NCBI RefSeq assembly: GCF_007860125.1
Contig: NZ_SJPW01000003.1
Span: 372,001 to 436,000, forward strand
DNA length: 64,000 nt
Reading direction: 5' to 3'
DNA from: Rubripirellula tenax
GTDB taxonomy: Bacteria > Planctomycetota > Planctomycetia > Pirellulales > Pirellulaceae
This document shows, piece by piece, positions 1,974 through 28,708 of the stretch. Position 1 is the first letter of the stretch, and each line of letters starts with the position of its first letter. Made by a program: the position numbers and the translations under genes. The notes under the pieces were generated by a model that saw only the letters and a list, made by a program, of their open reading frames with translations, was not told where the DNA came from and did not search any database.

Positions 1974-2843
1974 TCAACTTGCAGGCGCGTTTCGATTTCG
2001 ATATTCGCGAGGCGACACGCCCATGAAGACCCGAAACTGGCGGCTGAAATAGTTGCTATCCGAGAAGCCCACTGCCAGCGCGATATCAGTGACGCTTCGT
2101 TCCCCTCGCTGCAGCATCAAACAGGCTTGACGAACCCTCAACTGAATCAAGTACTTGATCGGCGGGCACCCCATCGTCGATTCGAACGTACGCAAAAAAT
2201 TGCGGCGAGACATCCCCGAAATATCAATCAACTCGTCAAGCGTGATGGGATCGGCGTAGTGCCGCTCGATGTGCGAGATCGCGTCGGCGACTCTTAGCAA
2301 CGATTTACTCTGAGGACTTCGCGACTTGCTGTAACATCGCGACAGGAAAGTCGCCAACTGAAGCAGCGCCGTTGTGGCCATGACCCCAAACCCTGGGTCA
2401 CGTTCGGTCAGTTCCGCGTCAAGCTGGTCCACCAATCGCATCGCCGCAACCAAGTCGAGCGGCGACAACTGCAACCGACTGCTAAACATGTGCCGCTTGC
2501 GCCACGCTGGTTCGAGCGTGAAGAGCGCGTGATAACCGGGCAACGATTGCAGATCCCCCATCCCCATCGGCAAATCATCCGCGTCGAACAGAATATTGAT
2601 CAAACGCAGTTGATCCATGTTCAGATAGTCGTGAGGCCGCGCGCCGCCGATCACAAACGTGTCGCCCGTCGTCACCTCGTAAGAGTCTTCGCCGGTAATG
2701 TGCACACCATGCCCACCGGTGATGATGACGATCTCCGAAAACTCATGCGAATGCAGACCGAACGGCTCCTGTGGATCCCGTCGTTCGACGACGATCGGGA
2801 ATCCGTCTTTGTGAAACCAGTCCTCTTTCTTCAACACCTGCAT
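1974..2843 (-). CDS. AraC-family regulator, probable rhamnose operon activator
   Basis: A 289-residue regulator with an N-terminal cupin sensing domain ([14 protein letters not shown] near residue 30) and a C-terminal pair of AraC HTH motifs (about 185-285, including [19 protein letters not shown] and [21 protein letters not shown]). The architecture is that of RhaS/RhaR, and it is divergent from the L-rhamnose isomerase gene. The inference is that it senses L-rhamnose and activates the operon at 3071-15387, and perhaps itself. I chose ATG 2843 ([10 protein letters not shown]) over the upstream in-frame start at 2912, since the extra 23 residues look unrelated to the cupin fold. It could be called rhaS/rhaR-like, but orthology cannot be settled here. 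Confidence 0.85.
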
Positions 2844-3070
2844 GGGCCAGAAAACACTCCAATGCCGACGAACCGGCCAGTAAAGTTCGAGTAAGCGAAA
2901 CGCAACAGCCATCGCCGCACCCTGCGAACTGGCATTATTGTGCTATAAACTGACACGATCGTCAAGGTTTCGGTCCCCAGATGAGGCTACATTGGCAACC
3001 ATCCAAGGAAGAGTCTTTTCGTCAATACAATGACTCGCATTCTAATTTCCTCCTTTCTCGGACCTTCGGC
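2844..3070. promoter_or_regulatory. Divergent regulatory region, AraC regulator / rhamnose isomerase
   Basis: This 227-bp spacer separates the divergent starts of the AraC gene and rhaA, so it should carry both promoters and the activator sites. A TATAAA hexamer at 2944-2949 is a possible -10 element for rhaA, but no convincing -35 stands 17 bp upstream. Two GGCCAG hexamers about 28 bp apart (near 2845 and 2874) could be half-sites. Only the divergent geometry is strong evidence. Confidence 0.4.
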
Positions 3071-4354
3071 ATGACACACTCGGCCAACTCACAAAAAGCT
3101 TACGAGCTTGCGATCGAAAAATACGCATCGATGGGTGTCGATGTGGAACAGGCCCTTCAACGACTCAAATCGGTCGCCATTTCCGTTCACTGTTGGCAGG
3201 GCGACGACGTCGCTGGCTTTGAAGACAACGGCACGGCGTTAGGAAGCGGACTGGCCGTGACCGGCAACTACCCCGGGCGGGCCCGTACTGCGGATGAACT
3301 GCGAACCGACCTCGAGATGGCGTATTCGTTGATCCCGGGAAAACATCGTTTGAATCTGCACGCGTTGTACGGCGAATTCCACGGGCCCGTTGATCGAAAC
3401 GAGATTGGTGTCGAACACTTCCAAGGTTGGATGGATTGGGCGGGAAGCAACGGCATCAGCCTGGATTTCAACCCCAGCTACTTCTCGCATCCCAAAGCCA
3501 ACGACGGATTCACGCTCTCGCACCCCGATGCCGGCATTCGTCGTTTCTGGGTCGACCACGGAATCGCGTGCCGCAAGATTGGCGCCGCGATGGGCAAGGC
3601 CCAAGGCAACGCATGCGTCAACAACGTTTGGGTTCCCGACGGCTACAAAGATACGCCGGCCGATCGCAAGGCGCCGCGAGAACGCCTGGCCGCGTCGCTT
3701 GATGCCGTCTTCGCTGAATCGATCGACAAGTCCTATTTGTTGGATGCGGTCGAATGCAAATTGTTTGGCATCGGTTCCGAAAGCTACGTCGTCGGATCGC
3801 ACGAATTTTACATGGGCTATGCGATCTCGCGCGACAAAGTCCTATGCTTGGACGCCGGTCACTTCCATCCCACCGAAGTAATCTCGGACAAGATCACGTC
3901 GACCTTATTGTATGTCGACGAACTGCTGTTGCACGTCAGCCGAGGCGTGCGTTGGGACAGCGATCATGTGGTGACGTTTTCGGACGAACTGCAATCGATC
4001 ATGCAAGAAATTGTTCGTGGCGACTATCTAGACCGGGTCCACATCGGATTGGACTTCTTCGATGCCAGCATCAACCGGGTTGCCGCCTGGGCAATCGGGA
4101 CTCGCAACGCGCTCAAGGCCGTGCTGGCCGCGCTCCTTGAGCCGACGGAAATGTTGCGCCGATACGAAGCCGATGGCGATTACACGGGCCGATTGGCGAT
4201 TCTTGAAGAACAAAAAATGATGCCCTTGGGCGCCGTTTGGGACCACTACTGTGAAATCTCCGGTGCACCGGCTGGTTCGCAGTGGCTCGAAAAAGTTCGC
4301 GATTACGAAACGGATGTGTTGTCACACCGGGCCTCGCACACCGCTTCGGTCTAG
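3071..4354 (+). CDS. rhaA: L-rhamnose isomerase
   Basis: A 427-residue L-rhamnose isomerase that converts L-rhamnose to L-rhamnulose in the cytoplasm with a divalent metal. Recognisable family stretches are [17 protein letters not shown] near the N-terminus, [47 protein letters not shown] and [12 protein letters not shown]. The last contains candidate metal ligands. The length matches the family (about 415-430). Start ATG 3071 gives [11 protein letters not shown], and the extra 30 residues of the frame from 2981 are not family-like. It is the first gene of a same-strand run reaching 15387 and anchors its interpretation as a rhamnose pathway. Confidence 0.96.
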
Positions 4355-4416: not shown

Positions 4417-5841
4417 ATGAGTGATGAGACGTCCAATTCAGGCGGCGAATTTGAACGCGAACCGGTACCTGATTCAGCACTGATGGGTTCGGGCAAGTTT
4501 TGGGGAATGTACGCGGGAGAGCATGCCGCGGGTACAGAATTCATGATCGGCCCGTTGTTTTTAGCAACCGGTGCCAGTCTGCAAGACTTGCTGCTGGGGC
4601 TACTGCTGGGCAACGTTCTGGCCGTATTGACGTGGCGTTTTTTGGTCACGCCGATCGCGATCGCAAAACGCATGACGCTGTACTATCAGCTCGAACGGAT
4701 CGCGGGCGGGTCGCTGGTAAAACTTTACAACGTCATCAACGGTTTACTGTTCTGCTTTTTAGCCGGTGCAATGGTGACGGTTTCCGCATCCGCAGTCGGT
4801 GTCCCGTTTGGAATCACCTTTGACGTGCCCGAGGCGATGTTCGGACTGAGTAACGGGTCGTTCACCGCGCTCGTTGCGATCGTCGGTGTTGTCATCGCAG
4901 TCGTTGCGGCGGGCGGCTATGACCGCGTTGCTCACTTCGCCAATATCGCAGCACCCTGGATGATCGGCGTCTTCGCCGCTTGCGGGATCGTGTCGCTCGG
5001 TCTGATGGGGGCGACGACGTCGGCTTCACTGACCGAAGGGAAGTTTTGGACCGACGCGATCGCGTTCGTGCAAGAAAAGAACGGACCGCAAACGTTTGGG
5101 TTCTGGCAAATTGTTGTGTTTGCCTGGCTGTGCAACGGGGCGATGCACTTTGGAATGGCCGACCTTTCGATCTTCCGTTTTGCACGCAGCAAGGCATCCG
5201 GATGGGCACCTGCGATCGGCATGTTCCTGGGCCACTATATGGCCTGGATCGCGGCCGCACTTTTGATGGCCGCGCTGATCAAACTGCAACCTGAGTTGGC
5301 ACTCGGTAGCGACGGCAAGGTTTCCGCCAATCCCGGACTGCTTGCGTTTCAATCAGTCGGCTGGACCGGAATCATTTGCGTGGTGATTGCTGGCTGGACG
5401 ACCGCGAACCCAACGATCTATCGCGCGGGACTCGCGTTCCAGGGCGTCATTCCCGGCAGCTCGCGAACGGCAATGACTTTGGTTGCCGGTGCAATCGCGA
5501 CCATCGCCGGCGCGTTCCCCAACCTGTCCGCACAACTGCTGGGATTCGTTGGAACCTATGGAACAGTACTGGGCCCGATGGGTGCGATCATCTTTGTCGA
5601 CTTCTACTTCATGAAACGTTTCGGACTCCGCGACGAGTATGCCGCCCACAACAAGATCGCGATCAACGCCGCGGTGCTGATCGCCTGGCTGCTTCCTGTT
5701 GCGATCGGGATTTACATGATTTTCGCGCAAGGATTGTTCGCGGCCTATGCGGTACTTCCATGTTGGATCGCAAGCGGTGTGATCTACCTTCTGCTCAGCA
5801 AAGTGATGCAGAAAAACGACACCACGTCCGTCGTCTCCTAA
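4417..5841 (+). CDS. NCS1/cytosine-permease-like transporter, candidate rhamnose permease
   Basis: A 474-residue polytopic protein with about 12 hydrophobic helices. The N-terminal GMYAGEHAAGTEFMIGPLFLATGAS stretch and the layout recall purine-cytosine permeases of the NCS1 family, which are cation symporters for nucleobases. Here it sits 62 bp after rhaA and before a rhamnosidase, with no nucleobase gene nearby. Its most likely cargo is therefore L-rhamnose or a related deoxy sugar (inference from context). No RhaT-type transporter is in the locus. The following small membrane gene starts 29 bp downstream and may be an accessory subunit. Confidence 0.8.
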   Translation: MSDETSNSGGEFEREPVPDSALMGSGKFWGMYAGEHAAGTEFMIGPLFLATGASLQDLLLGLLLGNVLAVLTWRFLVTPIAIAKRMTLYYQLERIAGGSLVKLYNVINGLLFCFLAGAMVTVSASAVGVPFGITFDVPEAMFGLSNGSFTALVAIVGVVIAVVAAGGYDRVAHFANIAAPWMIGVFAACGIVSLGLMGATTSASLTEGKFWTDAIAFVQEKNGPQTFGFWQIVVFAWLCNGAMHFGMADLSIFRFARSKASGWAPAIGMFLGHYMAWIAAALLMAALIKLQPELALGSDGKVSANPGLLAFQSVGWTGIICVVIAGWTTANPTIYRAGLAFQGVIPGSSRTAMTLVAGAIATIAGAFPNLSAQLLGFVGTYGTVLGPMGAIIFVDFYFMKRFGLRDEYAAHNKIAINAAVLIAWLLPVAIGIYMIFAQGLFAAYAVLPCWIASGVIYLLLSKVMQKNDTTSVVS

Positions 5842-5870
5842 CGCAAACCACTCTCGAAGAGATTCTTCCC

Positions 5871-6068
5871 ATGAATGCAATCACAAAAATCGTTTCGTTG
5901 GTTTCGTTAACCGCCGTCGTCCTCCCTTGCGTGCTGTTCTTTTTCGGAACCGTTGAATTGAACGTCGTGAAGTGGGCCGCTTTGGCCGGTACGATCGGAT
6001 GGTTCATCGCGGCACCACTTTGGATGAGCAACAAGCCCGAAATCGACGACGCTGAAGTCCAAATCTAA
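5871..6068 (+). CDS. Small two-TM membrane protein of the rhamnose operon
   Basis: A 65-residue protein with two hydrophobic segments (about 8-27 and 35-52), a short turn between them and an acidic tail ending EIDDAEVQI. It starts at ATG 5871, 29 bp after the permease, and the rhamnosidase gene begins 62 bp later. I do not recognise a family. Position and size suggest a stabilising or regulatory partner of the permease, comparable in size to small subunits of some symporters. Coding status rests on operon position, a good membrane-protein composition and a clean reading frame. Confidence 0.7.
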   Translation: MNAITKIVSLVSLTAVVLPCVLFFFGTVELNVVKWAALAGTIGWFIAAPLWMSNKPEIDDAEVQI

Positions 6069-6130
6069 AGCCCGAAAGCTTGAAGGACCTCTGCCCTGTC
6101 CCGCCTCCCCCTCCCGCCGTTCGACACACC

Positions 6131-9100
6131 ATGCAGCGCACCGTGAAACCAACCACCCTTTCTTTTATTTTCCTTTCCCTTGCATCTCTGGCGACACTCC
6201 AAGCCTTCGCCGTCGAACCGACGCATCTTCGATGTGAGTATCGGGAAAACCCGGTCGGCATTGACGTTGCATCACCTCGCTTGAATTGGCGTCTGGAATC
6301 ACGCGAACGCGGCCAAGTCCAAACGGCGTATCGCGTGCTCGTGGCTTCGTCGGCGGAAAAGTTGGCAGCGGGCGAGGGAGATCTTTGGGATTCGGGAAAG
6401 GTCGAATCGGATCAGTCGCTGTTCATTCCATACGCCGGCAAGCCACTGCTTTCGCGCACGGGGTGCTTTTGGAAAGTGCAAACCTGGGGCAACGACGGGT
6501 CCGAACCGACGACCAGCGAACCCGCATTCTGGTCGATGGGCTTGTTGGCGGACTCTGATTGGTCCGCCGATTACATTTCGTATCGCGACGAGTCATCGAT
6601 TCATACCGACGTCGAGAATCTGTACCTTCCCGCGGCGCGGCAATACCGAAAGGACTTTGCCGCCGCCAAACAGGTCGCACGCGCGACCGTCTATTCGACC
6701 TCGCTGGGTATCTATGAACTCCATCTCAACGGCAAACGTGTTGGCGACGCTTACTTTGCACCGGGATGGACCGACTATCGCAAGCGAGCTTACTACAACA
6801 CCTATGACGTGACGGACTTGGTTCGTGTCGGCGACAACGCCATCGGTGCATGGGTCGCCGACGGCTGGTACAGCGGTTATGTCGGATTCGGATTGCTAAC
6901 CGCGATGGGCACCGAACGCACCGGACGGGCGACGTATGGCAAGACGCCTTCGGTGATGGCACAGCTTGAAATCGAATACACCGACGGTTCCCGTGAAACG
7001 ATCGGTACCGACGAGAGTTGGAAGGTATCCGGGGACGGCCCGATTCAAGAAGCCGACCTGTTGATGGGTGAAGCCTATGATGCTGAAAAAGAAATGAAAG
7101 GCTGGACAGAATCCGGCTTTGACGACGGGGCTTGGCAGTCGGCCATCTTCGCTCGCGACAACGGCAACCCCACCGCGACCTTCTATCAACGGCGAAACCC
7201 GACGAAGCCAGGACAGGGCATCCGCAACTTGGGTGCCGAAGAAGAATTTGGGTTCAAACGCCCAAAGCTAGAAGCCTTTCCCGGCGTCCCGGTGCGTGTG
7301 ACCGAAGAAATCTCAGCGAAGAAAGTGACCCAACGAGAACCAGGGGTCTTCGTCTTTGACCTCGGCCAAAATTTTGCTGGCGTGATTCGGTTGAAGATCA
7401 AAGGACCAGCCGGCCAACGCGTTCGCATTCGCTATGCCGAAATGCTTCATCCCGACGGCCGAATGATGACCGAGAATCTGCGCAAAGCACGCGCGACAGA
7501 CTTCTATACGTGCAGCGGTGATCCCGATGGTGAGATCTACCAACCGCGGTTCACGTTCCACGGATTCCAATTCGTCGAACTGGAAAATTTCCCGGGCACG
7601 CCTTCGCTGGACACGGTCACCGGTTTGGTGATGCACAGCGACACGCCGATGGTCAGCGAGTTTGAATGCAGCGACTCGATGGTCAATCGCTTGTTTCAAA
7701 ACGTGCTGTGGACACAACGCGCCAACTTCTTGGACTTACCTACCGATTGCCCCCAGCGCGACGAACGAATGGGATGGACCGGTGACGCACAAGCCTATGT
7801 CGCCACCGCCGCCTACAACGCGGACATCGGTGCGTTCTATACCAAGTGGCTTCGCGAATTGATGGAGTCGCAGCGTCCCAGCGGCGCGTTCCCCGGCTAC
7901 GCACCGTTCCCGTTCCAACACGGCTGGGACTTTGGCACCGCATGGGCCGACGCGGGTGTGATTTGTCCGTGGACGCTTTGGCAAGCCTACGGCGACACTC
8001 GCGTGATCGAAACGTGCTGGGAACCGATGACCAAGTTCATGGATTGGCGCAACCAAACATCGGTTGATGACCTGGGGATCAATCACGGGAACGCATGGGG
8101 CGACTGGCTGGCCCAGGGCGCCGAAACTCCGCTCGATTACGTCGATTCGATCTACTACGCGATCTCGGCCAAGATGATGTCCGAAATGGCTGCCGCAATC
8201 GGTCGTGACGAAGAAGCCGCCGCCTATCAAAATCAATTCGAGAAAACCAAGGCGGCGTTTCAGGCCAAGTACGTCAATGATGACGGCAGCGTGAACGTCA
8301 AAACACAGACCGCTCAAGCATTGGCGTTATTCGCCGACTTGATTCCCGACGACAAACGCGAAGCGACCGGGCAACACTTGGCCGACATGCTGGCCGACAA
8401 CGGCAACCACATGGCCACCGGCTTCTTGGGCACACGTCCGCTGTTGCCCGTTCTGTCCGCATCGGGCCAACACGATTTAGCGACGTTTTTGTTGCAGTCG
8501 CGTGAGTTCCCGTCGTGGGGCTACGAGATTTCCAACGGCGCGACAACGATCTGGGAACGCTGGGACAGTTACACCAAAGAAGACGCTTTCGGCCGGCACA
8601 ACGCGGCGATGAATTCGTTCTCGCACTACGCATTCGGTGCCGTTTGCGAGTGGATGTTTCATACGTTGGCTGGCATTCAGTCCGATGGACCGGGATATGC
8701 AACGATCAGCATCCGGCCGCAACCGCCCGCACCGGCCAGCAACGCGATGCACACGCCGATCGACTGGGTCAACGCGTCGTACGATTCGATTCGTGGTCCA
8801 ATCCAAAGCAGTTGGAAACTCGCCGATAGTGACTTCCGATTGAACGTGACGATCCCGGCCAATACGACGGCAACCGTCTATCTGCCGACCGGTGATACCG
8901 CCAGCATCAAAGAAGGCGGCAAGTCGATCAGCGACAACCCGCACATCAAACTGCTGCGCGCCGATGCAAACGAAGCGGTACTAAGCGTTGCATCGGGGCG
9001 ATACGAGTTCGTCGCATCCAACAGCATTGCCAAGGCCGACGTCACGCTGAAAACGACGAAGCCCAAAGACACTTCGATCAACCCCGACGGGATCGACGTC

Positions 9101-11044
9101 AGCGACGCGAAGCAAGTTGCCCGCTGGGACTTCAGCAATCCCGTCGATTTGGCAAAGTGGACGCATCGCAGCAACATTGAAATTCAAAATCGCGACGGGA
9201 AAACGTTTTTGGTCGCTGCCGGTGACGATTCGCAAATGGCGACGACGCTCGACAACGAAATCTCCGGCCGACTGGTTATCGAAATGAAGGCGATGCCGAA
9301 GAACCGTATGGCAAGCCAGTTCTTCTGGGCGAAACCGGGCGCCGGATTTGATGGGATACATCAAACCAAGCGAAACCTATCGGCATCCGAAACCGTCAAC
9401 GCCTACTTGTTGGCGATCGCGGACAACGGACCGATCAAGTCGATTCGTTTCGATCCCTTCGATACGTACGACCAATACGCCAACAAGGGCGAACTGATGG
9501 TCGAGTCAATCACGATTTATCAGTTGCCTTCGCCGAAACCGGAAACCAAAAAGTCAGCCGACGGTGCGTCGAACCAAGACACGTCGAACCAAGACACGTC
9601 GAACGTAACAACCAAGGGACGCCCCAATGTCAAGGGACGCCCCAATGTGCTGTTCATTCTTAGCGAGGACCAAGGCGCGCACTTGGGAATGATCGGCACA
9701 CCGGGTCTATCGACACCGAATCTGGATGCGATCGCAACGTCTGGCGTGTACTTCGACAATGCGTTCGTGGCTTACCCGGTTTGCTCGGCGTCGAAGGCGG
9801 CGATCTATACCAGTCTGCACAATCACACCAACGGGATTCTGAACAACACGCACAACTTTCATAAGCCGGCCGACCAAGTCTCTGCGGGTGAGCGGAACAT
9901 GCGATTGGCAAAAACCAATCGTGTTCGTGACCAGTTTCTGACGATACCAGAAATCTTGAAGGCTAACGGTTACTACCAAGGCGTGACACACAAGCTGCAC
10001 GTGCTGCCGAACGAAAAATTTCCGTTCGATGAATTCATGCACGGCGGCGTCGGTGAAGTTCGCAGCTTTCTCGATCACGCCAAAGCGAACGATCAACCGT
10101 GGTTTTTGATGGTCAACATTCCGTACTCCCATCGCCCCTATCCCAACAGCGACAAGAACCCGATCGGCGTCAACCCGGACGACGTTCAGTTGCCCGATTA
10201 CCTTCCCGACACGCCGGTTGTCCGCCAAGACTGGGCCGAATACCTAGCGGGCATCGAAGCCGTCGACGTCGCGGTTGGCCAGACGATGGACGTCCTTCGT
10301 GAATCGGGCGAACTCGAAAACACATTCATCGTTTACATGAGTGATCACGGTCCGACGTTCCAACATGGGAAGATGACGCTTTACGATCTGGGGCTTCGCG
10401 TTCCGCTGTCGTTTTCGGGTCCAGGCATCCCTCCGGGTGTTCGCACCGACGCGCTGGCAAGCGAGTTAGATTTAATGCCGACGTTGTTCGATTTGATCGA
10501 GCAGCAAAGCGGCCGTCCCGTTCGCGTCGGAGGAAATGACGACGACGCATTTCCTTACCGCATCGACGGGATTTCGCATTTTGCCACAGTAACCGGCGGT
10601 GCAAAATCAGGACAACGAGCCCATGTCTTCGCCGAAATTTCGAACCGCGGTCCCCTTCCCAACGATGGCATTCAAGAACGCAGCGTGTTTGACGGCCGTT
10701 GGAAACTGATCTACCGCGAAAACGTCGAAAAAGCCTGGCGGCAAGTCAATGACGATACTCGGATGTTCAAGACTTGGGGCAATCGCACTTACGACGAAAC
10801 CATCCGAACGAAGCAACGGTTCCCGGTCCAATACCGTATCCTGGCTGAAATGGATCCGCAAGAATTGGGCGGTCTTGTTCCCTCGCTCGAGCTATACGAC
10901 CTGCAAAGCGATCCCCACGAAATGCGAAACCTAGCGACCGACTCAACCCACCAAGCCAAACGGATTGAGTTGATCGCCTCGCTTCGTAAGTGGGTGGCCG
11001 AAACAAACGACTCTTCTGTCTCCCTCGACTCGATCAACCCCTAG
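6131..11044 (+). CDS. GH78 alpha-L-rhamnosidase fused to a sulfatase
   Basis: A 1637-residue secreted bifunctional enzyme. A signal peptide (1 to about 28) is followed by rhamnosidase N-terminal beta domains (about 30-435), the six-hairpin GH78 catalytic domain (about 440-860) and its C-terminal beta domain (to about 960). The catalytic acid E545 lies in DERMGWTGD and the catalytic base E809 in WERW. A beta-type accessory region (about 985-1150), a low-complexity linker with tandem repeats and a sulfatase domain (about 1172-1637) follow. The sulfatase has NVLFILSEDQG, the nucleophile C1218 in CSASK, and SDHG/GKMTLYDLG. CSASK has Lys where the usual maturation motif has Arg. The protein should remove sulfate and terminal rhamnose from one substrate. 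As I recall, a GH78/sulfatase multimodular protein occurs in the ulvan locus of Formosa agariphila, so the combination has precedent. ATG 6131 is chosen over TTG 6080 because the signal peptide starts there. Confidence 0.93.
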   Translation: MQRTVKPTTLSFIFLSLASLATLQAFAVEPTHLRCEYRENPVGIDVASPRLNWRLESRERGQVQTAYRVLVASSAEKLAAGEGDLWDSGKVESDQSLFIPYAGKPLLSRTGCFWKVQTWGNDGSEPTTSEPAFWSMGLLADSDWSADYISYRDESSIHTDVENLYLPAARQYRKDFAAAKQVARATVYSTSLGIYELHLNGKRVGDAYFAPGWTDYRKRAYYNTYDVTDLVRVGDNAIGAWVADGWYSGYVGFGLLTAMGTERTGRATYGKTPSVMAQLEIEYTDGSRETIGTDESWKVSGDGPIQEADLLMGEAYDAEKEMKGWTESGFDDGAWQSAIFARDNGNPTATFYQRRNPTKPGQGIRNLGAEEEFGFKRPKLEAFPGVPVRVTEEISAKKVTQREPGVFVFDLGQNFAGVIRLKIKGPAGQRVRIRYAEMLHPDGRMMTENLRKARATDFYTCSGDPDGEIYQPRFTFHGFQFVELENFPGTPSLDTVTGLVMHSDTPMVSEFECSDSMVNRLFQNVLWTQRANFLDLPTDCPQRDERMGWTGDAQAYVATAAYNADIGAFYTKWLRELMESQRPSGAFPGYAPFPFQHGWDFGTAWADAGVICPWTLWQAYGDTRVIETCWEPMTKFMDWRNQTSVDDLGINHGNAWGDWLAQGAETPLDYVDSIYYAISAKMMSEMAAAIGRDEEAAAYQNQFEKTKAAFQAKYVNDDGSVNVKTQTAQALALFADLIPDDKREATGQHLADMLADNGNHMATGFLGTRPLLPVLSASGQHDLATFLLQSREFPSWGYEISNGATTIWERWDSYTKEDAFGRHNAAMNSFSHYAFGAVCEWMFHTLAGIQSDGPGYATISIRPQPPAPASNAMHTPIDWVNASYDSIRGPIQSSWKLADSDFRLNVTIPANTTATVYLPTGDTASIKEGGKSISDNPHIKLLRADANEAVLSVASGRYEFVASNSIAKADVTLKTTKPKDTSINPDGIDVSDAKQVARWDFSNPVDLAKWTHRSNIEIQNRDGKTFLVAAGDDSQMATTLDNEISGRLVIEMKAMPKNRMASQFFWAKPGAGFDGIHQTKRNLSASETVNAYLLAIADNGPIKSIRFDPFDTYDQYANKGELMVESITIYQLPSPKPETKKSADGASNQDTSNQDTSNVTTKGRPNVKGRPNVLFILSEDQGAHLGMIGTPGLSTPNLDAIATSGVYFDNAFVAYPVCSASKAAIYTSLHNHTNGILNNTHNFHKPADQVSAGERNMRLAKTNRVRDQFLTIPEILKANGYYQGVTHKLHVLPNEKFPFDEFMHGGVGEVRSFLDHAKANDQPWFLMVNIPYSHRPYPNSDKNPIGVNPDDVQLPDYLPDTPVVRQDWAEYLAGIEAVDVAVGQTMDVLRESGELENTFIVYMSDHGPTFQHGKMTLYDLGLRVPLSFSGPGIPPGVRTDALASELDLMPTLFDLIEQQSGRPVRVGGNDDDAFPYRIDGISHFATVTGGAKSGQRAHVFAEISNRGPLPNDGIQERSVFDGRWKLIYRENVEKAWRQVNDDTRMFKTWGNRTYDETIRTKQRFPVQYRILAEMDPQELGGLVPSLELYDLQSDPHEMRNLATDSTHQAKRIELIASLRKWVAETNDSSVSLDSINP
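9567..9648 (+). repeat. Two adjacent tandem duplications at the fusion seam
   Basis: Within the linker of the rhamnosidase-sulfatase gene there are two exact 15-bp units (CGTCGAACCAAGACA at 9567-9581 and 9582-9596, plus a partial third) and an 18-bp unit (AAGGGACGCCCCAATGTC at 9614-9631, repeated at 9632-9648 with its last base changed). They encode SNQDTSNQDTS and KGRPNVKGRPNV. The second copy of GRPNV runs directly into the sulfatase fold, so that duplication copies the first residues of the sulfatase domain. Confidence 0.9.
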
Positions 11045-11062: not shown

Positions 11063-12553
11063 ATGTCCATCGCATCCGGCGTTCAACTGCTTCCCGAAGT
11101 CGAAGCGTTTCTAAATCGTGATTCGTTACCAGCATTCGTCGGCGGCAAGCCGTTTCCGGCGGCCAGCGGCGCGACCGTCGCAACGATCGATCCTGGATCG
11201 GGCAACAAGCTAGCCGACATTCACGATCTGGATGCATCTGAAATTGATCGTGCGGTCGACATTGCCAATCAAGCTTTCCCCGCTTGGTCGGCGCTATCGG
11301 TGGACGAACGAAGCAAGATCCTTTTGCGTTTGGCCGATGCCGTTGAAAAACACAAACCCATCATCGCTCAAATCGAAGCTCTCGACGCGGGCAAGATCGA
11401 AGCTCAAGCACAAGGTGACGTCCAGAACTTCGTCGACACGTTGCGTTACTTCGTCAAACTTTCCGGAAAAGTCGAAACGCGAACTAAGTTGGATGCCCCC
11501 GGTCACGACGCATGGACCTACAAACAACCCTGGGGCGCGTGTGCGTTCATCTTCCCCTGGAACTTCCCGTTCCTGCTGATCGGTTGGGGGATTTCGCCCG
11601 CGCTGGCCGCCGGCAACACGGTCGTGATCAAGCCCGCCGAAGACACATCGCTGTCGGCCATCTACTTAGCCGAACTGGCCAAAGAAGCGGGTGTTCCCGA
11701 TGGCGTGATCAACGTTGTCACCGGACGCGGCGCCACCGCCGGTGCCGCATTGACGAACAACACCAAAATCAAACGCATGTCGTTTACCGGTTCGCCCGAA
11801 GTCGGCCAGTTGGTCGGTGAAACGTGCGGTCGAAATTTGGTTCCCGTCAAGCTAGAACTCGGTGGCAAGGGTGCCGCGGTCGTTTTCGATGACGTGGATG
11901 TAAAAGCGACGGCCGAAGCACTGGTCGGCGCGATCACGTTTCACTCTGGCCAAGTCTGTTGTGACGCGACGCGTTGGATGATTCACGAAAAGATCTACGA
12001 CGAATTCGTGGGCTACTGTGTCGATCTGATGAAGAACGTTCGCGTCGGTCACCCGCTGGACCCGAACAGCCAAATGGGTCCCGTTGTGAATCCCAAGCAA
12101 TGCACCCGAGTCCTCAGCTATCTTGAAAAAGGACAAGCCGAAGGCGCAGAGTGCTTGGTCGGCGGCGGCCAAGCAGCGGTCGATGGATTCAAAGGCAATT
12201 ACATTCAACCGGCTTTGCTGAGCGGAACGCTGAACAACGTCGCCGCGCGGGAAGAAATTTTTGGCCCGGTCGCCTATCTGGTCAAGTTTTCGACCGAGGC
12301 TGAAGCGATCGAAATGGTCAACGATACCGATTACGGGTTGGCCAACAGCGTTTGGACAAAGGACATGGAACGCGCCGCTCGCGTCGCCGAGTCAATGACG
12401 GCTGGCAACAGTTGGATCAACGCCCACAACGTGTTCGCCCACGGCGTCCCCTACGGCGGAGTCAACAAGAGCGGGATGGGCGGCGGAGTACTGTCCGTCG
12501 AAACTTTGATGGACTACTACCGTAGCACGTCGGTCGTTCGGCCCCTTGCCTAG
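11063..12553 (+). CDS. NAD(P)-dependent aldehyde dehydrogenase, probable lactaldehyde dehydrogenase
   Basis: A 496-residue ALDH-superfamily enzyme with the expected motifs: FPWNFPF cofactor pocket, [14 protein letters not shown] with the general base E265, and the nucleophile in [10 protein letters not shown] (C299/C300). It starts 18 bp after the rhamnosidase-sulfatase gene. In the standard rhamnose pathway the aldolase releases L-lactaldehyde, so oxidation to L-lactate is the likely role (inference). Closest-looking families are betaine/retinal-type ALDHs, so the substrate cannot be read from sequence alone. No microcompartment targeting peptide or shell gene is seen, unlike the planctomycete fucose/rhamnose compartment systems. 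Confidence 0.88.
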
Positions 12554-12596
12554 TGCTTTCGATTCATCGCCTTACCCTTCCAACTGCGCTCGCTTC

Positions 12597-13889
12597 ATGA
12601 ATCCTCTTCGAAATCTTGTACACCCGCGTGACGAAATCATGCGGACGATGGACCGAATCTACCGCTACCGAATGACGACCACGTCCGGTGGCAACCTTTC
12701 GATCCGAGACGACGAAGGAAACATCTGGATCTCGCCTGCGAGAGTGGACAAGGGCGCCCTGACTCGCAAGGACATCGTCTGCGTTCGCGCCGACGGTTCT
12801 GTCGATGGACTTCATCCGCCGTCGTCGGAATTTCCGTTTCACAAAGCGATCTATAAGGCTCGTCCCGACATTCGGGCGATCGTTCACGCCCACCCGGTCG
12901 CATTGGTTGCGTTCAGCATCTGTCGCCAAACGCCCAACACGCGGCTGTTCCACCAAGCCCACTCGGTATGCGGGAAGCTAGGCTTTGCACCCTATGCGTG
13001 TCCGGGCAGCGAGGCGCTCGGGGCCAGTATCGCCGCCACGTTCGCCGAAGGTTGTGACAGCGTCATCCTAGAAAACCACGGTGTTGTCGTCGGCGGCCAA
13101 TCGTTGGCCAGCGCATTCGAGCGTTTCGAAGCGTTCGAGTTCGCTGGCAAGACGTTGGTCAAAGCAAGCCAACTGGGCGGCGTTCGGTTCTTGGAAGACA
13201 AACATCTTCAGCAAGCAGCCAATCGCGGAGTCGACTTCCAGTCCTACGATCCGCCAGCCGCATCGGCGAACGAGCAAGAGCTGCGACGACAGTTGTGCGA
13301 ATTTGTGCGTCGCGGCTGCCGGCAACGATTGTTGATCAGCACCGAGGGCAGCTTTTCAGCACGCGTCGACGCCGATTCTTTCCTGATCACTCCGACGCAA
13401 AAAGACCGCGAACTGCTGGACATCGACGACCTCGTTCTGGTCAACGGTGACAACCGCGAATATGGCAAGCTTGCCAGCCGTGCGGCACGCGCTCACCAAG
13501 CGATCTACAAAAAGCATCCCGCCGTCCAAGCCATCGTGTTTGCACACCCGGTCAATGCGACCGCGTTCAGCGTGACCGATTCGACGTTCGATGTCCGGAC
13601 GATTCCGGAAAGCTATGTGTTCCTTCGTGACGTCAAACGCGTTCCCTATGGAACCCAGTACCGCGACGAAAACGAATTGGCAACGTATGTTTCCGAATCG
13701 TCACCGGCAGCTATGCTAGAAAACGACGGCGTGATCGTGACGGGGCGAAGCGTGCTGGACACGTTCGACCGTTTGGAAGTGCTGGAATCGACGGCCGAAG
13801 CCGTGATCAATGCCAAGTCGATCGGTGAAGTCGCTACCATGCCCGACACCGTGATTGATGAACTTAAATCTGCTTTTAACTTAAACTGA
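12597..13889 (+). CDS. Duplicated class II aldolase; second half catalytically degenerate
   Basis: A 430-residue protein made of two class II aldolase/adducin domains (about 5-205 and 215-425). The first keeps the zinc and catalytic residues: SSEF glutamate, H97 and H99 in HAHP, and H161 in ENHGV. In the second the same positions read as a Glu-less stretch, FAHP (F315 replaces the first His) and ENDG (D377 replaces the third His), so it can hardly bind zinc. It probably cleaves L-rhamnulose-1-phosphate to dihydroxyacetone phosphate and L-lactaldehyde (context inference); known enzymes are single-domain oligomers. ATG 12597 is preferred to TTG 12546, which would overlap the dehydrogenase gene. 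Confidence 0.88.
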
Positions 13890-23697: not shown

Positions 23698-23958
23698 ATC
23701 AAATCAGCCGATTCAAACCAGCTAGAATCAACAACACTCGTTTCACTTCGAATGTCCTGGGGGGGAATACGTTGCCCAAGCCATCGGTAACGCGACCTGA
23801 TTTAACGAGCGACCTCACAAGTGCATTGATTGTCAAACAGAGACAAGGCACATTGGATGCCTGGGTTTAGAGTTCCAATCTGCTTCCTGTTCTGTATTGT
23901 TTGTCGTTCTGCGAGCGGTGAATGTGCGAGATTTTTCCGATTATCTCAAGAGATTCTC

Positions 23959-25470
23959 ATGACACCTCATCCATTTGCTTTTTGCCTCTACCTGCTCGCC
24001 GGCACACTGACGCTCAACGTGACGACTGCCCTCGCCGAGCGACCTAACTTTGTGATCTTGATCGCCGATGACGTCAGCTACAACGATCTCGGCTGTTTTG
24101 GCAGCCTGGATGCCCGCACCCCCAGAATCAATGCTCTTGCGATGGAAGGCCTGCGTTTTTCGAATGCGTTTCTAACGGCCAGTAGTTGCAGCCCGAGCCG
24201 CAGCAGCATCATCACCGGGCGCTACCCACACAACAATGGACAAGCCGCCGAACTTCATCAAGCAATCTCGGGGCACTTGCCTTCGTTCACCGGAACCCTG
24301 CGTGACAACGGATACTTCACGTGCCTGGCCGGCAAACACCACATGACGTGGGATGACGCCGCGACCGTGGCCGCGCCGACGGAGCCGTTCGACAAAGTTT
24401 TTCAACCCAACAACAAGGGCAACTCGGGTGGTCACGCGAACTGGATCAACGCGATCGAGCAGCGTCCGGTGAATCAACCGTTTTGTTTTTGGTTCGCCTC
24501 GTTGGACGCGCATCGCGACTGGGATAGCGACCAACAGTGGGACGAAGCGTCGTACGGCCCGATGCATGAACCCGACCGTCTGCATCTGCCGCCGGCGTTT
24601 GTGGACACCCCAGAGACTCGCGAGGATTTCGCATCGTACCTGAACGAGGTCACTCGATTCGATCACTTTGTCGGTCGGGTAATTGACCGTCTGAAAGTCG
24701 AAGGCGTTTTCGATAACACGTACATCTTTGTGTTGGCCGACAACGGACGTCCGTTTCCGCGAGCCAAGACACGACTGCATGACGACGGGATGCAAACGTA
24801 CCTGATTGCCACGGGGCCAAAAATTCAACGGCCCGGTGCCGTCTGCGACTCGCTGGTCAGCGTGATTGACATCGCACCCACGATCACACAATTGGCGGGT
24901 GCTGAGAAGCCGGAGAGTTTTCAGGGCGAATCGATGCTACCGTTGTTCGAAGACCTGACGTCAACCATTCGTCCGTATGCGTTCTCGGAACACAACTGGC
25001 ATGATTACGAGTCGCTTGCGCGTAGCGTGCGAGATGGCCGGTGGCTGTTGATCAAAAACTTCCGCCCACAGTTCGCGATGCAAGGACCAGCCGACTCGGT
25101 TCGCAGCCCGACGCACCAAGCATTGCGATCCGCCGCCGCTTCGGCGGAACCCTTGACTCCGATCCAGGCGGACGTATTGGCAGCACCGCGACCCGAAACC
25201 GAACTCTATGACACCGCAGGCGATCCACACCAAATTCACAACTTGGCCGACGATCCGAAATATGCTGTGATCCAATCGCGTCTTCTCAGCACGCTTCGAA
25301 CGTGGCGAGAAAAAACAGGAGACGATATTCCCGAGAAGATTACACCAGATTTTTTCGATCGCGACACCGGTGATTCGCTGCACCTGGGAAAGGCGGTCGC
25401 CGACCAACGAAGGCAACCGTATCCAGGGAATCGGCATCGGGCCGACACAATCAACCACGCGGGGTTCTAG
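23959..25470 (+). CDS. Secreted sulfatase, heparan N-sulfatase-like group
   Basis: A 503-residue sulfatase with a signal peptide ending TTALAER. The metal motif is PNFVILIADDVSYNDLG, and the formylglycine cysteine C77 sits in a canonical CSPSR. GKHH, LADNGRPFPRAKT and the LHDDGMQTYLIATGP segment resemble the sulfamidase/S1_8-like group. It would remove sulfate esters or N-sulfate from extracellular glycans after maturation by a formylglycine-generating enzyme. ATG 23959 is favoured because the signal peptide follows. An in-frame upstream extension with ATG 23857 would place about 34 residues before it. The next gene begins 78 bp downstream. Confidence 0.92.
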   Translation: MTPHPFAFCLYLLAGTLTLNVTTALAERPNFVILIADDVSYNDLGCFGSLDARTPRINALAMEGLRFSNAFLTASSCSPSRSSIITGRYPHNNGQAAELHQAISGHLPSFTGTLRDNGYFTCLAGKHHMTWDDAATVAAPTEPFDKVFQPNNKGNSGGHANWINAIEQRPVNQPFCFWFASLDAHRDWDSDQQWDEASYGPMHEPDRLHLPPAFVDTPETREDFASYLNEVTRFDHFVGRVIDRLKVEGVFDNTYIFVLADNGRPFPRAKTRLHDDGMQTYLIATGPKIQRPGAVCDSLVSVIDIAPTITQLAGAEKPESFQGESMLPLFEDLTSTIRPYAFSEHNWHDYESLARSVRDGRWLLIKNFRPQFAMQGPADSVRSPTHQALRSAAASAEPLTPIQADVLAAPRPETELYDTAGDPHQIHNLADDPKYAVIQSRLLSTLRTWREKTGDDIPEKITPDFFDRDTGDSLHLGKAVADQRRQPYPGNRHRADTINHAGF

Positions 25471-26821: not shown

Positions 26822-28708
26822 ATGAAACGATCTCAAACCATTTTCGCTATCGCTCTTTTCGCACTGGTCTCGGCCCGTTTGGCGGTCGCTGGTCAGCCGA
26901 ATATTTTGGTGATTCTGGCGGATGACTTGGGATACTCCGATATCGGTTGCTACGGTGGCGAGATTGCGACACCCAACATCAATGCGATGGCTAACGCAGG
27001 ATTGCAGTTCACTCGTTTTCGCGGGACTCCGATGTGCGTCACGTCGCGGATTGCGTTGATGGCGGGAATGCCGATGGACTATGCCGGCGGACACGCGTAC
27101 TCACATGCCGCACCGCTTCCGATGGTGATGAAGCAAGCCGGCTATCGAACGATGATGACGGGAAAGTGGCATGCCGGCGAACCCGACCCCAGATCGAAAG
27201 ACTTGTTTGATCGATCATTCGGATTTCTCGGCGGCATGACCGACTGTTTCATTGGCGGCAACGATTGGTTCTTGGACGATCAACCGTTCAACGACTTTGC
27301 CAACGATTTCTATTCGACCACTGCTTTTGCCGACAAAAGCATCGAGTTTATGAAAGAGTCGGTGGCGATGAAGAAGCCGTTCTTGATGTATGTGGCGTTG
27401 AATGCGCCCCACCATCCATGCCAGGCTCCTGAAGCAACGGTAAAAAAATACGAGAACCGATACGGCGTTGGGTACGATGCGATTCGCCAGCAACGTCGTG
27501 CGAAGCAGATCGAAATGGGATTGATTGATCCGGCGTGGACCATGACGCCGCTTGGAAATGAAGTTCGTGTCTGGGATCAACTGAGCGATCACCGACGTCG
27601 CATCGAAGCCGGGCGAATGGCCGCCTACGCGGCCGCCGTTGACGAAGTCGACATCGCGGTGGGGAAGCTAACGACTTTTGTGCGTGATGCGGGAATCGAA
27701 GACGACACGATCGTCATTTTTTTGTCGGATAACGGCGGCGACTACAGCAACGGTTCGATCGACGGCGACGAGAAACAGATCGCGTGGAAACCCCATGGCA
27801 ACCCGTCATCAAGCAACGGATGGGCAGCGGTGAAGGCAACTCCATTTCGATACTACAAGCACGCCTGCCATGAAGGTGGGATCGCCGTACCGATGGTGAT
27901 CCAATGGCCCGCTGGCATCTCTCTAGACTCAGGCGACCGTGTGGATGCAGCAGCCAGCATCGTTGACTTGTACCCGACGCTGATCGAATTGGCGGGTGCG
28001 ACTTACCCGGCTGAGTTCGCCGGTCATGCGACTCGCCCGCTGGCGGGATCGTCACTTGTTCCTTTGATGAAACCGAACGGCCATCGCGAATCAAAACCGG
28101 TCTTCGAGTACTACGACTTCTCGCGGTCGTGGATCGACGACGAATGGAAGGCCGTCAGCCTTTACAACGGACCCTGGCAATTGTTCGACCTGCGGTCCGA
28201 TCGCGGCGAGTCAATCGACTTGGCTGCTCAACATCCCCATCGATTGAAACAACTTTCGGATCGATGGATAGCGTTCGCCGACGAATCCGGTATTCCAAAC
28301 GCGACCGAACCCGTATCGAGCGTCCAACACGGTTGGGGATGGCACCGATTGAAGATGGCTTGCCCGAGCCTCGTTGCGATGACACCGGCAAACGGATCGG
28401 TAACCGAATCGACATCGGTACGCCTTCGCATCGAATTTGCCGGCGCGATCGATTTTCGCGGCACCGAGAATCGATCGATTCGCGTCTACTGCGAGCCCGA
28501 CGAAGCGACGCCGATTTGGACTCTGGATCCCGACGCCACTCACCCGTCGCAGGGCAAACGGCAAGTCGATCTTGGCGAGTTGCCGATGCTGGAACCAGGA
28601 AAACAGTACTACGTCCTCTGGGATCCGGGTTGGATCCGCGTCGATGGTCGGCCGGTAGGCCCGCTGAACGACGGCGCGTATTGGTGGCGTTTCACGACAC
28701 CGAACTAG
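26822..28708 (+). CDS. Secreted sulfatase with CVTSR motif and Ig-like C-terminal domain
   Basis: A 628-residue sulfatase with a signal peptide ending VAGQ. The metal-binding start is PNILVILADDLGYSDIG. The modified residue C72 lies in PMCVTSR, where the usual Pro/Ala two positions after Cys is Thr while the Arg is kept. Other landmarks are GKWHAGE, LSDNGG and KHACHEGG. The arylsulfatase-type fold ends near 515, and a C-terminal Ig-like domain (about 520-628, AMTPANGSVTEST... ending YWWRFTTPN) resembles SbsA/Big_5 domains of surface proteins. It starts 52 bp after the beta-helix gene, so the two may be co-expressed. Confidence 0.9.
   Translation: MKRSQTIFAIALFALVSARLAVAGQPNILVILADDLGYSDIGCYGGEIATPNINAMANAGLQFTRFRGTPMCVTSRIALMAGMPMDYAGGHAYSHAAPLPMVMKQAGYRTMMTGKWHAGEPDPRSKDLFDRSFGFLGGMTDCFIGGNDWFLDDQPFNDFANDFYSTTAFADKSIEFMKESVAMKKPFLMYVALNAPHHPCQAPEATVKKYENRYGVGYDAIRQQRRAKQIEMGLIDPAWTMTPLGNEVRVWDQLSDHRRRIEAGRMAAYAAAVDEVDIAVGKLTTFVRDAGIEDDTIVIFLSDNGGDYSNGSIDGDEKQIAWKPHGNPSSSNGWAAVKATPFRYYKHACHEGGIAVPMVIQWPAGISLDSGDRVDAAASIVDLYPTLIELAGATYPAEFAGHATRPLAGSSLVPLMKPNGHRESKPVFEYYDFSRSWIDDEWKAVSLYNGPWQLFDLRSDRGESIDLAAQHPHRLKQLSDRWIAFADESGIPNATEPVSSVQHGWGWHRLKMACPSLVAMTPANGSVTESTSVRLRIEFAGAIDFRGTENRSIRVYCEPDEATPIWTLDPDATHPSQGKRQVDLGELPMLEPGKQYYVLWDPGWIRVDGRPVGPLNDGAYWWRFTTPN

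Follow-up and report, generated by a model that had tools for sequence, protein, structure and literature searches.

The window analysed here, a 64,000-nt stretch of the Rubripirellula tenax genome (GCF_007860125.1, NZ_SJPW01000003.1, positions 372,001-436,000), contains an operon in which the gene for a 474-amino-acid (aa) permease (4417..5841, + strand, ATG start) is followed, after a gap of 29 nt (5842-5870), by the gene for a predicted two-helix membrane protein of 65 aa (+ strand, ATG at 5871, stop ending at 6068). The permease was assigned a LeuT-type, NCS1-related fold by AlphaFold2 modelling and structure comparison, and the small protein is proposed as its subunit from its position behind the permease and from fusions of the two in homologues. 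The gene for L-rhamnose isomerase RhaA (2981..4354, + strand; PF06134, E 1e-202; NF002203, 693 bits against a cut-off of 572) ends 62 nt 5' of the permease start; its real start may lie some codons downstream of 2981, the domain beginning at residue 38. A RhaS/RhaR-like regulator of the AraC family is encoded divergently to the operon (1974..2912, - strand; Pfam HTH_18, 1.9e-23, and AraC_binding), and scores 143 bits with the NCBIfam RhaS model, under the cut-off of 288. Downstream of the small gene, a single open reading frame (ORF) of 1654 aa (6080..11044, + strand, with a possible alternative start at 6131) combines a glycoside hydrolase family 78 (GH78)-type alpha-L-rhamnosidase with a sulfatase (Bac_rhamnosid6H, 1.3e-126; Sulfatase, 7e-38), and is the presumed source of the permease substrate. 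It is followed by an aldehyde dehydrogenase (11063..12553, + strand; PF00171, E 1.7e-157), which from its place in the pathway presumably acts on L-lactaldehyde, and by a tandem double class II aldolase (12546..13889, + strand; PF00596, E 3.5e-76, two stretches), presumably the rhamnulose-1-phosphate aldolase, for which none of the 25 NCBIfam families listed (of 32) exceeded its cut-off. The first-pass annotation had placed the permease in a rhamnose operon, and the isomerase upstream and the rhamnosidase-sulfatase downstream bear this out.

The 8.0-Mb genome contains no second RhaA, so that its sole RhaA is the one adjoining the permease, and it holds one copy of the permease family. Two rhamnulokinase-like candidates are encoded elsewhere (494 and 454 bits, under the model cut-off of 528), and microcompartment shell genes are present on a different contig from the rhamnose operon. 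A neighbour cluster of the same double class II aldolase form is represented close to the permease in 10 loci, including loci of Bacteroidota. By eye, the sulfatase motif of the 6080..11044 ORF reads CSASK, whereas an arginine is normally part of this motif. Two more ORFs of the window (23830-25470 and 26822-28708) read as sulfatases, as might be expected in a degrader of sulfated polysaccharides.

The permease of the window matched no Pfam or NCBIfam model at E ≤ 0.1. The Pfam profile PF02133 found no match in the whole R. tenax genome and had matches in 4 of 14 control genomes. Among 24 scanned members of the permease family, six matched the cytosine permease model PRK11017 (best 2.1e-13), one TIGR00800 (ncs1; 7.7e-9) and one CytX (1.3e-4); none of these 24 matched the SSS profile of Pfam at E ≤ 1. 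Sequence searches against solved structures returned no match for the window permease, and only chance matches for the family profile and a fused member. Alignment of the family with Escherichia coli CodB by hhalign gave P 7e-7. The AlphaFold2 model (predicted local distance difference test, pLDDT, 89.9; predicted TM-score, pTM, 0.88; alignment of 62 rows) is closest to CodB (7qoa), with a Foldseek E of 5.1e-11 and a VIA-align Z of 33.6 over 394 residues at 3.4 Å and 18% identity, followed by Mhp1 (4d1a, 2jln and 2x79; Z 29.4, 27.3 and 25.9). The best match outside NCS1 was an SSS protein with Z 23.4. Among the named matches listed, the closest permeases are those of Stieleria sedimenti (85%), Planctomycetes bacterium K23_9 (84%) and Rubripirellula obstinata (84%), and a Rhodopirellula baltica record reaches 82%.

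Substrate-site residues were compared in 124 distinct homologues aligned with CodB. A member with an in-frame stop (L044), one broken in two (L046), one with an unclear C-terminal reading (L131), one cut at a contig end (L102) and three duplicates (L050, L147 and L148) were left out of these counts and of the tree described below; the first two are interrupted permease members from genomes of the same order. Solved CodB aligns without gaps to E. coli CodB over residues 1-410, so that the CodB residue numbering can be transferred. As described in the part of the CodB study consulted (PMC9379551), the base is sandwiched by Trp108 in transmembrane helix (TM) 3 and Phe204 in TM6, both conserved throughout NCS1, the TM3 aromatic being mostly Trp. 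The position of Trp108 corresponds to V122 of the permease and is occupied by V in 123 homologues and I in one; moreover, columns 115-128 of TM3 hold no aromatic residue in any of the 124, so that shifting the alignment by as many as six residues would leave this loss unchanged. The position of Phe204 corresponds to A242 (A in 112, I in 10, G in one and T in one). This TM6 reading is less sure than that of TM3, since the invariant W237 is close by, where TM6a ends, and the model has a long TM6 break. With this reservation for TM6, both base-stacking positions are non-aromatic in all 124 homologues, and the position of Gln105 is M in every one. At the positions of CodB Thr278 and Thr279, which we take to be ligands of the Na2 sodium site, Thr is found in 123 (T328) and 124 (T329) of the 124. 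The residues invariant throughout are E35, H36, T40, E41, W237, N240, H244, D249, R254, H273, W277, W327, T329, N331, Y335 and R336. Judged from the sequences, the row of charged and amide side chains where TM1 and TM6 break would suit a polyhydroxy substrate better than a base. The first-pass annotation had called the protein an NCS1-like permease. This holds for the predicted fold, which is nearest to CodB and Mhp1, while the likeness is distant and the window protein carries no Pfam or NCBIfam match. Because the family fails the test of the TM3 aromatic, it is described as NCS1-related and kept out of NCS1 proper: it is a sister family, and is filed neither as an NCS1 member nor as a nucleobase transporter.

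The 65-aa protein belongs to no Pfam family at E ≤ 0.1, and its one NCBIfam match, TIGR02226, lies at E 0.095 with 13 bits against a cut-off of 23. Nevertheless, the small gene is real. Comparison of the ORF of the window with 14 hand-chosen copies of equal length gave summed differences of 410, 221 and 500 for codon positions 1, 2 and 3, and since position 2 differed least in 14/14 copies, the ORF is more than a chance one. Among the first 12 short homologues (the window, ten from whole genomes and one from a plasmid), all 12 have the small gene. A profile of 75 small proteins was then run on 80 loci of the genome_contigs set, the best 80 of at least 565 permease relatives. In 63 of them the small gene comes immediately after the permease; one of the 17 loci lacking it there stops at a contig edge. 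With mechanically chosen starts, the median gap between the two genes is 6 nt, and in 13 of the 63 loci they overlap by 4 nt. Among the 31,137 ORFs read from these loci in six frames, the profile found one further match at E ≤ 0.1 (E 0.031, L062). The search was extended to 20 whole genomes, comprising five positive controls and 15 genomes without the small gene beside the permease. Each of the five controls has exactly one copy. No copy was found anywhere in 13 of the 15; one of the other two has the small gene behind a second permease, 41% identical to that of the window, and the other has a weak match (E 0.004) with no permease adjoining. All six matches below 1e-10 in the 20 genomes stand behind a permease homologue. 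The two-helix nature of the protein is a prediction: its second segment in the window is only mildly hydrophobic (Kyte-Doolittle about 1.2), but the model of a fused homologue (L139) places two helices in the small domain, at residues 477-498 and 504-529, where pLDDT is 54-74.

The 124 distinct homologues fall into three states: the small part is a separate gene in 87, is fused to the permease in 20 and is lacking in 17. In 24 of the loci, the examination covered the permease with its tail or with the small gene behind it. Three proteins carry the small domain fused directly to the permease C terminus (L138, 526 aa; L139, 530 aa; L143, 517 aa), and in a search of 24 proteins the hidden Markov model (HMM) of the small protein recognised these domains with E values of 4.1e-12, 2.7e-12 and 4.8e-9, respectively. 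A separate clade of 17 rows consists of proteins of about 560-590 aa with a linker and two hydrophobic segments at the C terminus, from Planctomycetota and from plasmids of Alteromonas, Pseudoalteromonas and Catenovulum. These long tails gave weak matches to an HMM made from 12 small proteins (best E 0.007 among the matches listed). A profile of 12 tails aligned to the small-protein profile with a score of 38.7 (probability 88.5%, P 3.1e-7), as against scores of at most 10.0 for 26 permease windows, 4.4 for 60 column-shuffled and 8.6 for 100 block-shuffled profiles, and 4.5 for the reversed one. The scores of no more than 10.0 for the permease windows lend no support to an origin of the small protein as a duplicate of TM11-TM12. 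In a tree of 125 rows built by a quick method, whose outgroup, E. coli CodB, has a very long branch, the three states require 8 changes in total, compared with a mean of 34.6 after shuffling (as low in 0 of 200). Three of these changes concern the fused state, two of them forced by well-supported branches, the counts being alike for gain or loss.

Since the small protein has been fused to the permease more than once and elsewhere is encoded next to it, it is best read as a subunit. The suggestion of a small accessory subunit made in the first-pass annotation thus gains from the three direct fusions and from the profile homology of the long-tail clade. That annotation had also held that absence of the small gene from relatives would speak against the pair; it is indeed missing in the 17 homologues, and nowhere to be found in 13 of the 15 genomes, so that this objection holds in part.

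The gene context of the permease was surveyed in the same 80 loci, counting as isomerase any RhaA or RhaI gene found by tblastn at E ≤ 1e-20. An isomerase is present in 59 of the 80, in 44 of the 56 loci with at least 4 kb on each side and in 35 of the 43 with 9 kb on each side; it ends less than 400 nt upstream on the same strand in 30 of the 80. This linkage spans Planctomycetota, Verrucomicrobiota and Bacteroidota. Representatives of neighbour clusters include RhaA, a RhaI-like protein, a bifunctional rhamnulose-phosphate aldolase/SDR, a rhamnulokinase-like protein and others. Co-occurrence was scored in 60 related genomes including R. tenax, with strong RhaA defined by an author-set threshold of E < 1e-150. 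The permease family is present in 11 of 12 strong-RhaA genomes vs 4 of 48 others (Fisher p 4e-8, kinship ignored). When the Pfam cut-off is used instead, the figures are 11/14 vs 4/46, the two extra genomes scoring 27-28 bits and having no permease. For intact short-type permeases only, they are 10/12 vs 1/48 (p 9e-9, kinship likewise ignored). In 10 of the 12 strong-RhaA genomes the isomerase gene is adjacent to the permease. For loci without a rhamnose enzyme, nine neighbours picked by eye and one plasmid kinase were scanned for their families. A GH78-type rhamnosidase was the neighbour in five (L101, L107, L078, L092 and L098), and the others include a sulfatase (L087), a GH28 enzyme (L074) and a PfkB kinase (L026). 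By gene context this is a sugar family, with rhamnose as its main company and other sugars beside it. The proposal that the protein is a sugar permease is therefore supported by the isomerase linkage in three phyla, by co-occurrence with RhaA and by the altered substrate site.

Taken together, we consider it likely that the permease, as the large part, and the 65-aa protein, as the small one, form a single system for L-rhamnose uptake across the inner membrane. In such a system, L-rhamnose would be freed by rhamnosidase-sulfatases and imported through ion-coupled alternating access by the 12-helix permease, which has the NCS1/LeuT fold and the conserved Na2-site threonines T328 and T329. The sugar would be held not between two aromatics, as bases are in NCS1 proteins, but by an invariant polar set (E35, H36, E41, N240, H244, D249 and N331) that is predicted to sit at the TM1 and TM6 breaks and on TM8. 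RhaA would then convert it to rhamnulose, a rhamnulokinase-like protein encoded elsewhere would phosphorylate this, and the double aldolase and the aldehyde dehydrogenase would complete the degradation. The small protein may pack on the C-terminal helices of the permease with its N terminus in the cytoplasm, since the fusions join after TM12 and so put that terminus on the side of the permease C terminus; there it might contribute to stability, to assembly or to the part of the transport cycle that stays fixed, much as MAP17 does with SGLT2.

Several observations weigh against this picture. Being the best of at least 565 relatives, the 80 loci lean to the subfamily of the window itself. Among other members, L096 adjoins an FGGY kinase and a class II aldolase. 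Loci with long-tail fusions lie near a mannitol dehydrogenase-type gene in 7 of 12 cases and near a rhamnose isomerase in 2 of 12; one is in a kduI/kduD cluster, and in 2 of 12 no sugar gene was identified. The mannitol dehydrogenase, kduI/kduD and L096 contexts together indicate that substrates vary across the family. At the ion site, the position of CodB Asn275 is Ala in all 124 homologues, the residue being named as a Na2 ligand in the part of PMC9379551 consulted. Fourteen of the 17 homologues missing the small part are from Bacteroidota, and the 17 comprise L077/L079, three Cyclobacteriaceae, a clade of 11 Flavobacteriaceae-Saprospiraceae rows and L145, in which a second look found no hydrophobic candidate and which was counted as none; together with the 13 of 15 searched genomes that hold no copy anywhere, they show the small part to be dispensable in some lineages. 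The model of the L139 fusion has an overall pLDDT of 87.2, with 54-74 in the small domain, too low to place it with confidence, and no contact surface is therefore claimed. Finally, the R. tenax genome contains one match, a distant one, to the RhaT profile PF06379 elsewhere, at G000:C2:1027268 (39.9 bits against the Pfam cut-off of 27). As to the individual loci, L096 is from Cecembia rubra, has a permease without the small gene, and its kinase and aldolase look like an L-arabinose set. L026, L027 and L040-L045 form a fused-tail permease subfamily adjoining the mannitol dehydrogenase-type gene, which is followed by a carbohydrate kinase in the three plasmid records of this type viewed; this subfamily perhaps carries a polyol or uronate.

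The contexts of other sugars bear directly on what the permease moves. Transport of a related compound, be it rhamnulose, a disaccharide containing rhamnose, a different deoxy sugar, or L-lactaldehyde or lactate as a product to be exported, would suit the loci in which the isomerase is kilobases off or not found, those with hydrolases, sulfatases and other sugar kinases adjoining, and the members next to genes for other sugars. In the subfamily of the window, by contrast, the commonest position of the permease is directly beside the isomerase. Rhamnose isomerase acts on free L-rhamnose, and a GH78-type enzyme should release the free sugar, which counts against such a compound, and we regard it as unlikely. 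Less room is left for an ordinary NCS1 transporter of nucleobases, nucleosides or vitamins that happens to sit in a rhamnose operon. CodB and Mhp1 are the nearest solved structures, three plasmid copies of the permease are annotated 'nucleoside transporter' and some family members match cytosine permease models. Against this stand the repetition of the isomerase linkage across phyla, the co-occurrence with RhaA and the non-aromatic base-stacking positions (subject to the lower certainty of the TM6 register). Nor does base salvage figure among the ten neighbour-cluster representatives that were scanned, all of them sugar, lactate or aldehyde enzymes, kinases or regulators. This makes such a transporter very improbable.

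Rhamnose could also enter by another carrier, for example a distant RhaT-family protein, with the permease an accessory. The PF06379 match noted above speaks for this; the window permease itself has no match to that profile at Pfam E ≤ 0.1. However, none of the ORFs around the RhaT-family gene reads as a rhamnose isomerase; by eye they resemble an aldose epimerase, a sugar kinase and dehydrogenases. The single RhaA of the genome adjoins the permease rather than this gene, and entry by this route appears very improbable. The RhaT-family protein (L172 4269-5378) is possibly another sugar carrier of the genome. As for the small protein, it might be an assembly factor, a regulator or merely a co-expressed protein of separate function, and no lasting subunit. 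Its absence from 17 homologues and the docking of the small part without confidence would agree with such a role, whereas fusion in 20 of the 124 homologues, with three changes on the tree of which two are firm, and the lack of any small-profile match below 1e-10 away from a permease homologue in the 20 genomes argue for a subunit. Such a looser role is consequently rather unlikely.

Extended beyond the window, the two-component L-rhamnose carrier would exemplify an uncharacterised family of bacterial sugar symporters with an NCS1-related fold, in which an invariant polar set replaces the base-stacking site and a two-helix subunit has been repeatedly fused, split or dropped. Rhamnose would be the main substrate and other sugars further ones, and the family, spread over Planctomycetota, Verrucomicrobiota, Lentisphaerota, Bacteroidota and some Gammaproteobacteria, would parallel SGLT-MAP17 in bacteria. 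We give this wider reading an even chance. If it is true, the family tests directly, with a clear gene partner, whether NCS1-type proteins reach beyond nitrogen heterocycles, and the natural split and fused forms are ready tools for asking what small subunits do in LeuT-fold carriers. Rhamnose is, moreover, a component of algal polysaccharides.

Among the papers listed by a literature search covering titles and the starts of abstracts, with few subscription journals, none dealt with an NCS1-related sugar carrier or with this small protein. PMC7746861 was considered as a precedent for a small symporter subunit and set aside, as the 'small subunit' in the portion consulted is a malic enzyme matter. 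The known L-rhamnose transporters belong to at least three protein families, namely RhaT (DMT), RhaFGHJ (ABC) and a permease of another family, and none of the carriers in the part of PMC3870299 consulted is NCS1-related; they resemble the permease in predicted job and gene company, and differ from it in family. Similarly, the sections consulted of a genome study of Verrucomicrobiota (PMC8857213) credit rhamnose uptake to rhaT-type proton symporters. Within NCS1, the cytosine:Na+ symporter CodB (7qoa) shares with the permease the fold and the conserved Trp277, Thr278, Thr279, Tyr285 and Arg216. Unlike CodB, however, the permease lacks equivalents of Trp108, Phe204 and Gln105 in the base site and of Asn275 in Na2, and has charged residues at the TM1 break, a partner protein and a rhamnose context. 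The hydantoin:Na+ symporter Mhp1 is the second nearest fold, at 13% identity to the permease, and the listed Mhp1 entry titles name no small partner. The metformin transporter MetT is an NCS1 protein whose substrate has no heterocycle; unlike the carrier proposed here, it transports no sugar. In the excerpt consulted of the MetT report (PMC13390362, 2026), other characterised bacterial NCS1 proteins take nitrogen heterocycles, metformin is the reported exception, and NCS1 uptake of compounds other than nitrogen heterocycles is called unknown. The closest working analogy for the permease and its small protein would be SGLT2-MAP17. SGLT1 and SGLT2 with MAP17 (SSS; Z 19 to 22) likewise pair a sugar symporter of LeuT fold with a small auxiliary protein in the membrane, which, in the part of PMC10803289 consulted, is described as essential and as belonging to the fixed scaffold, and is credited with stability and localisation more than with a direct effect on activity, and whose tethering was used for structures. 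In contrast, MAP17 is human and has a single TM helix, and the permease of R. tenax is nearer to NCS1 than to SSS structures.

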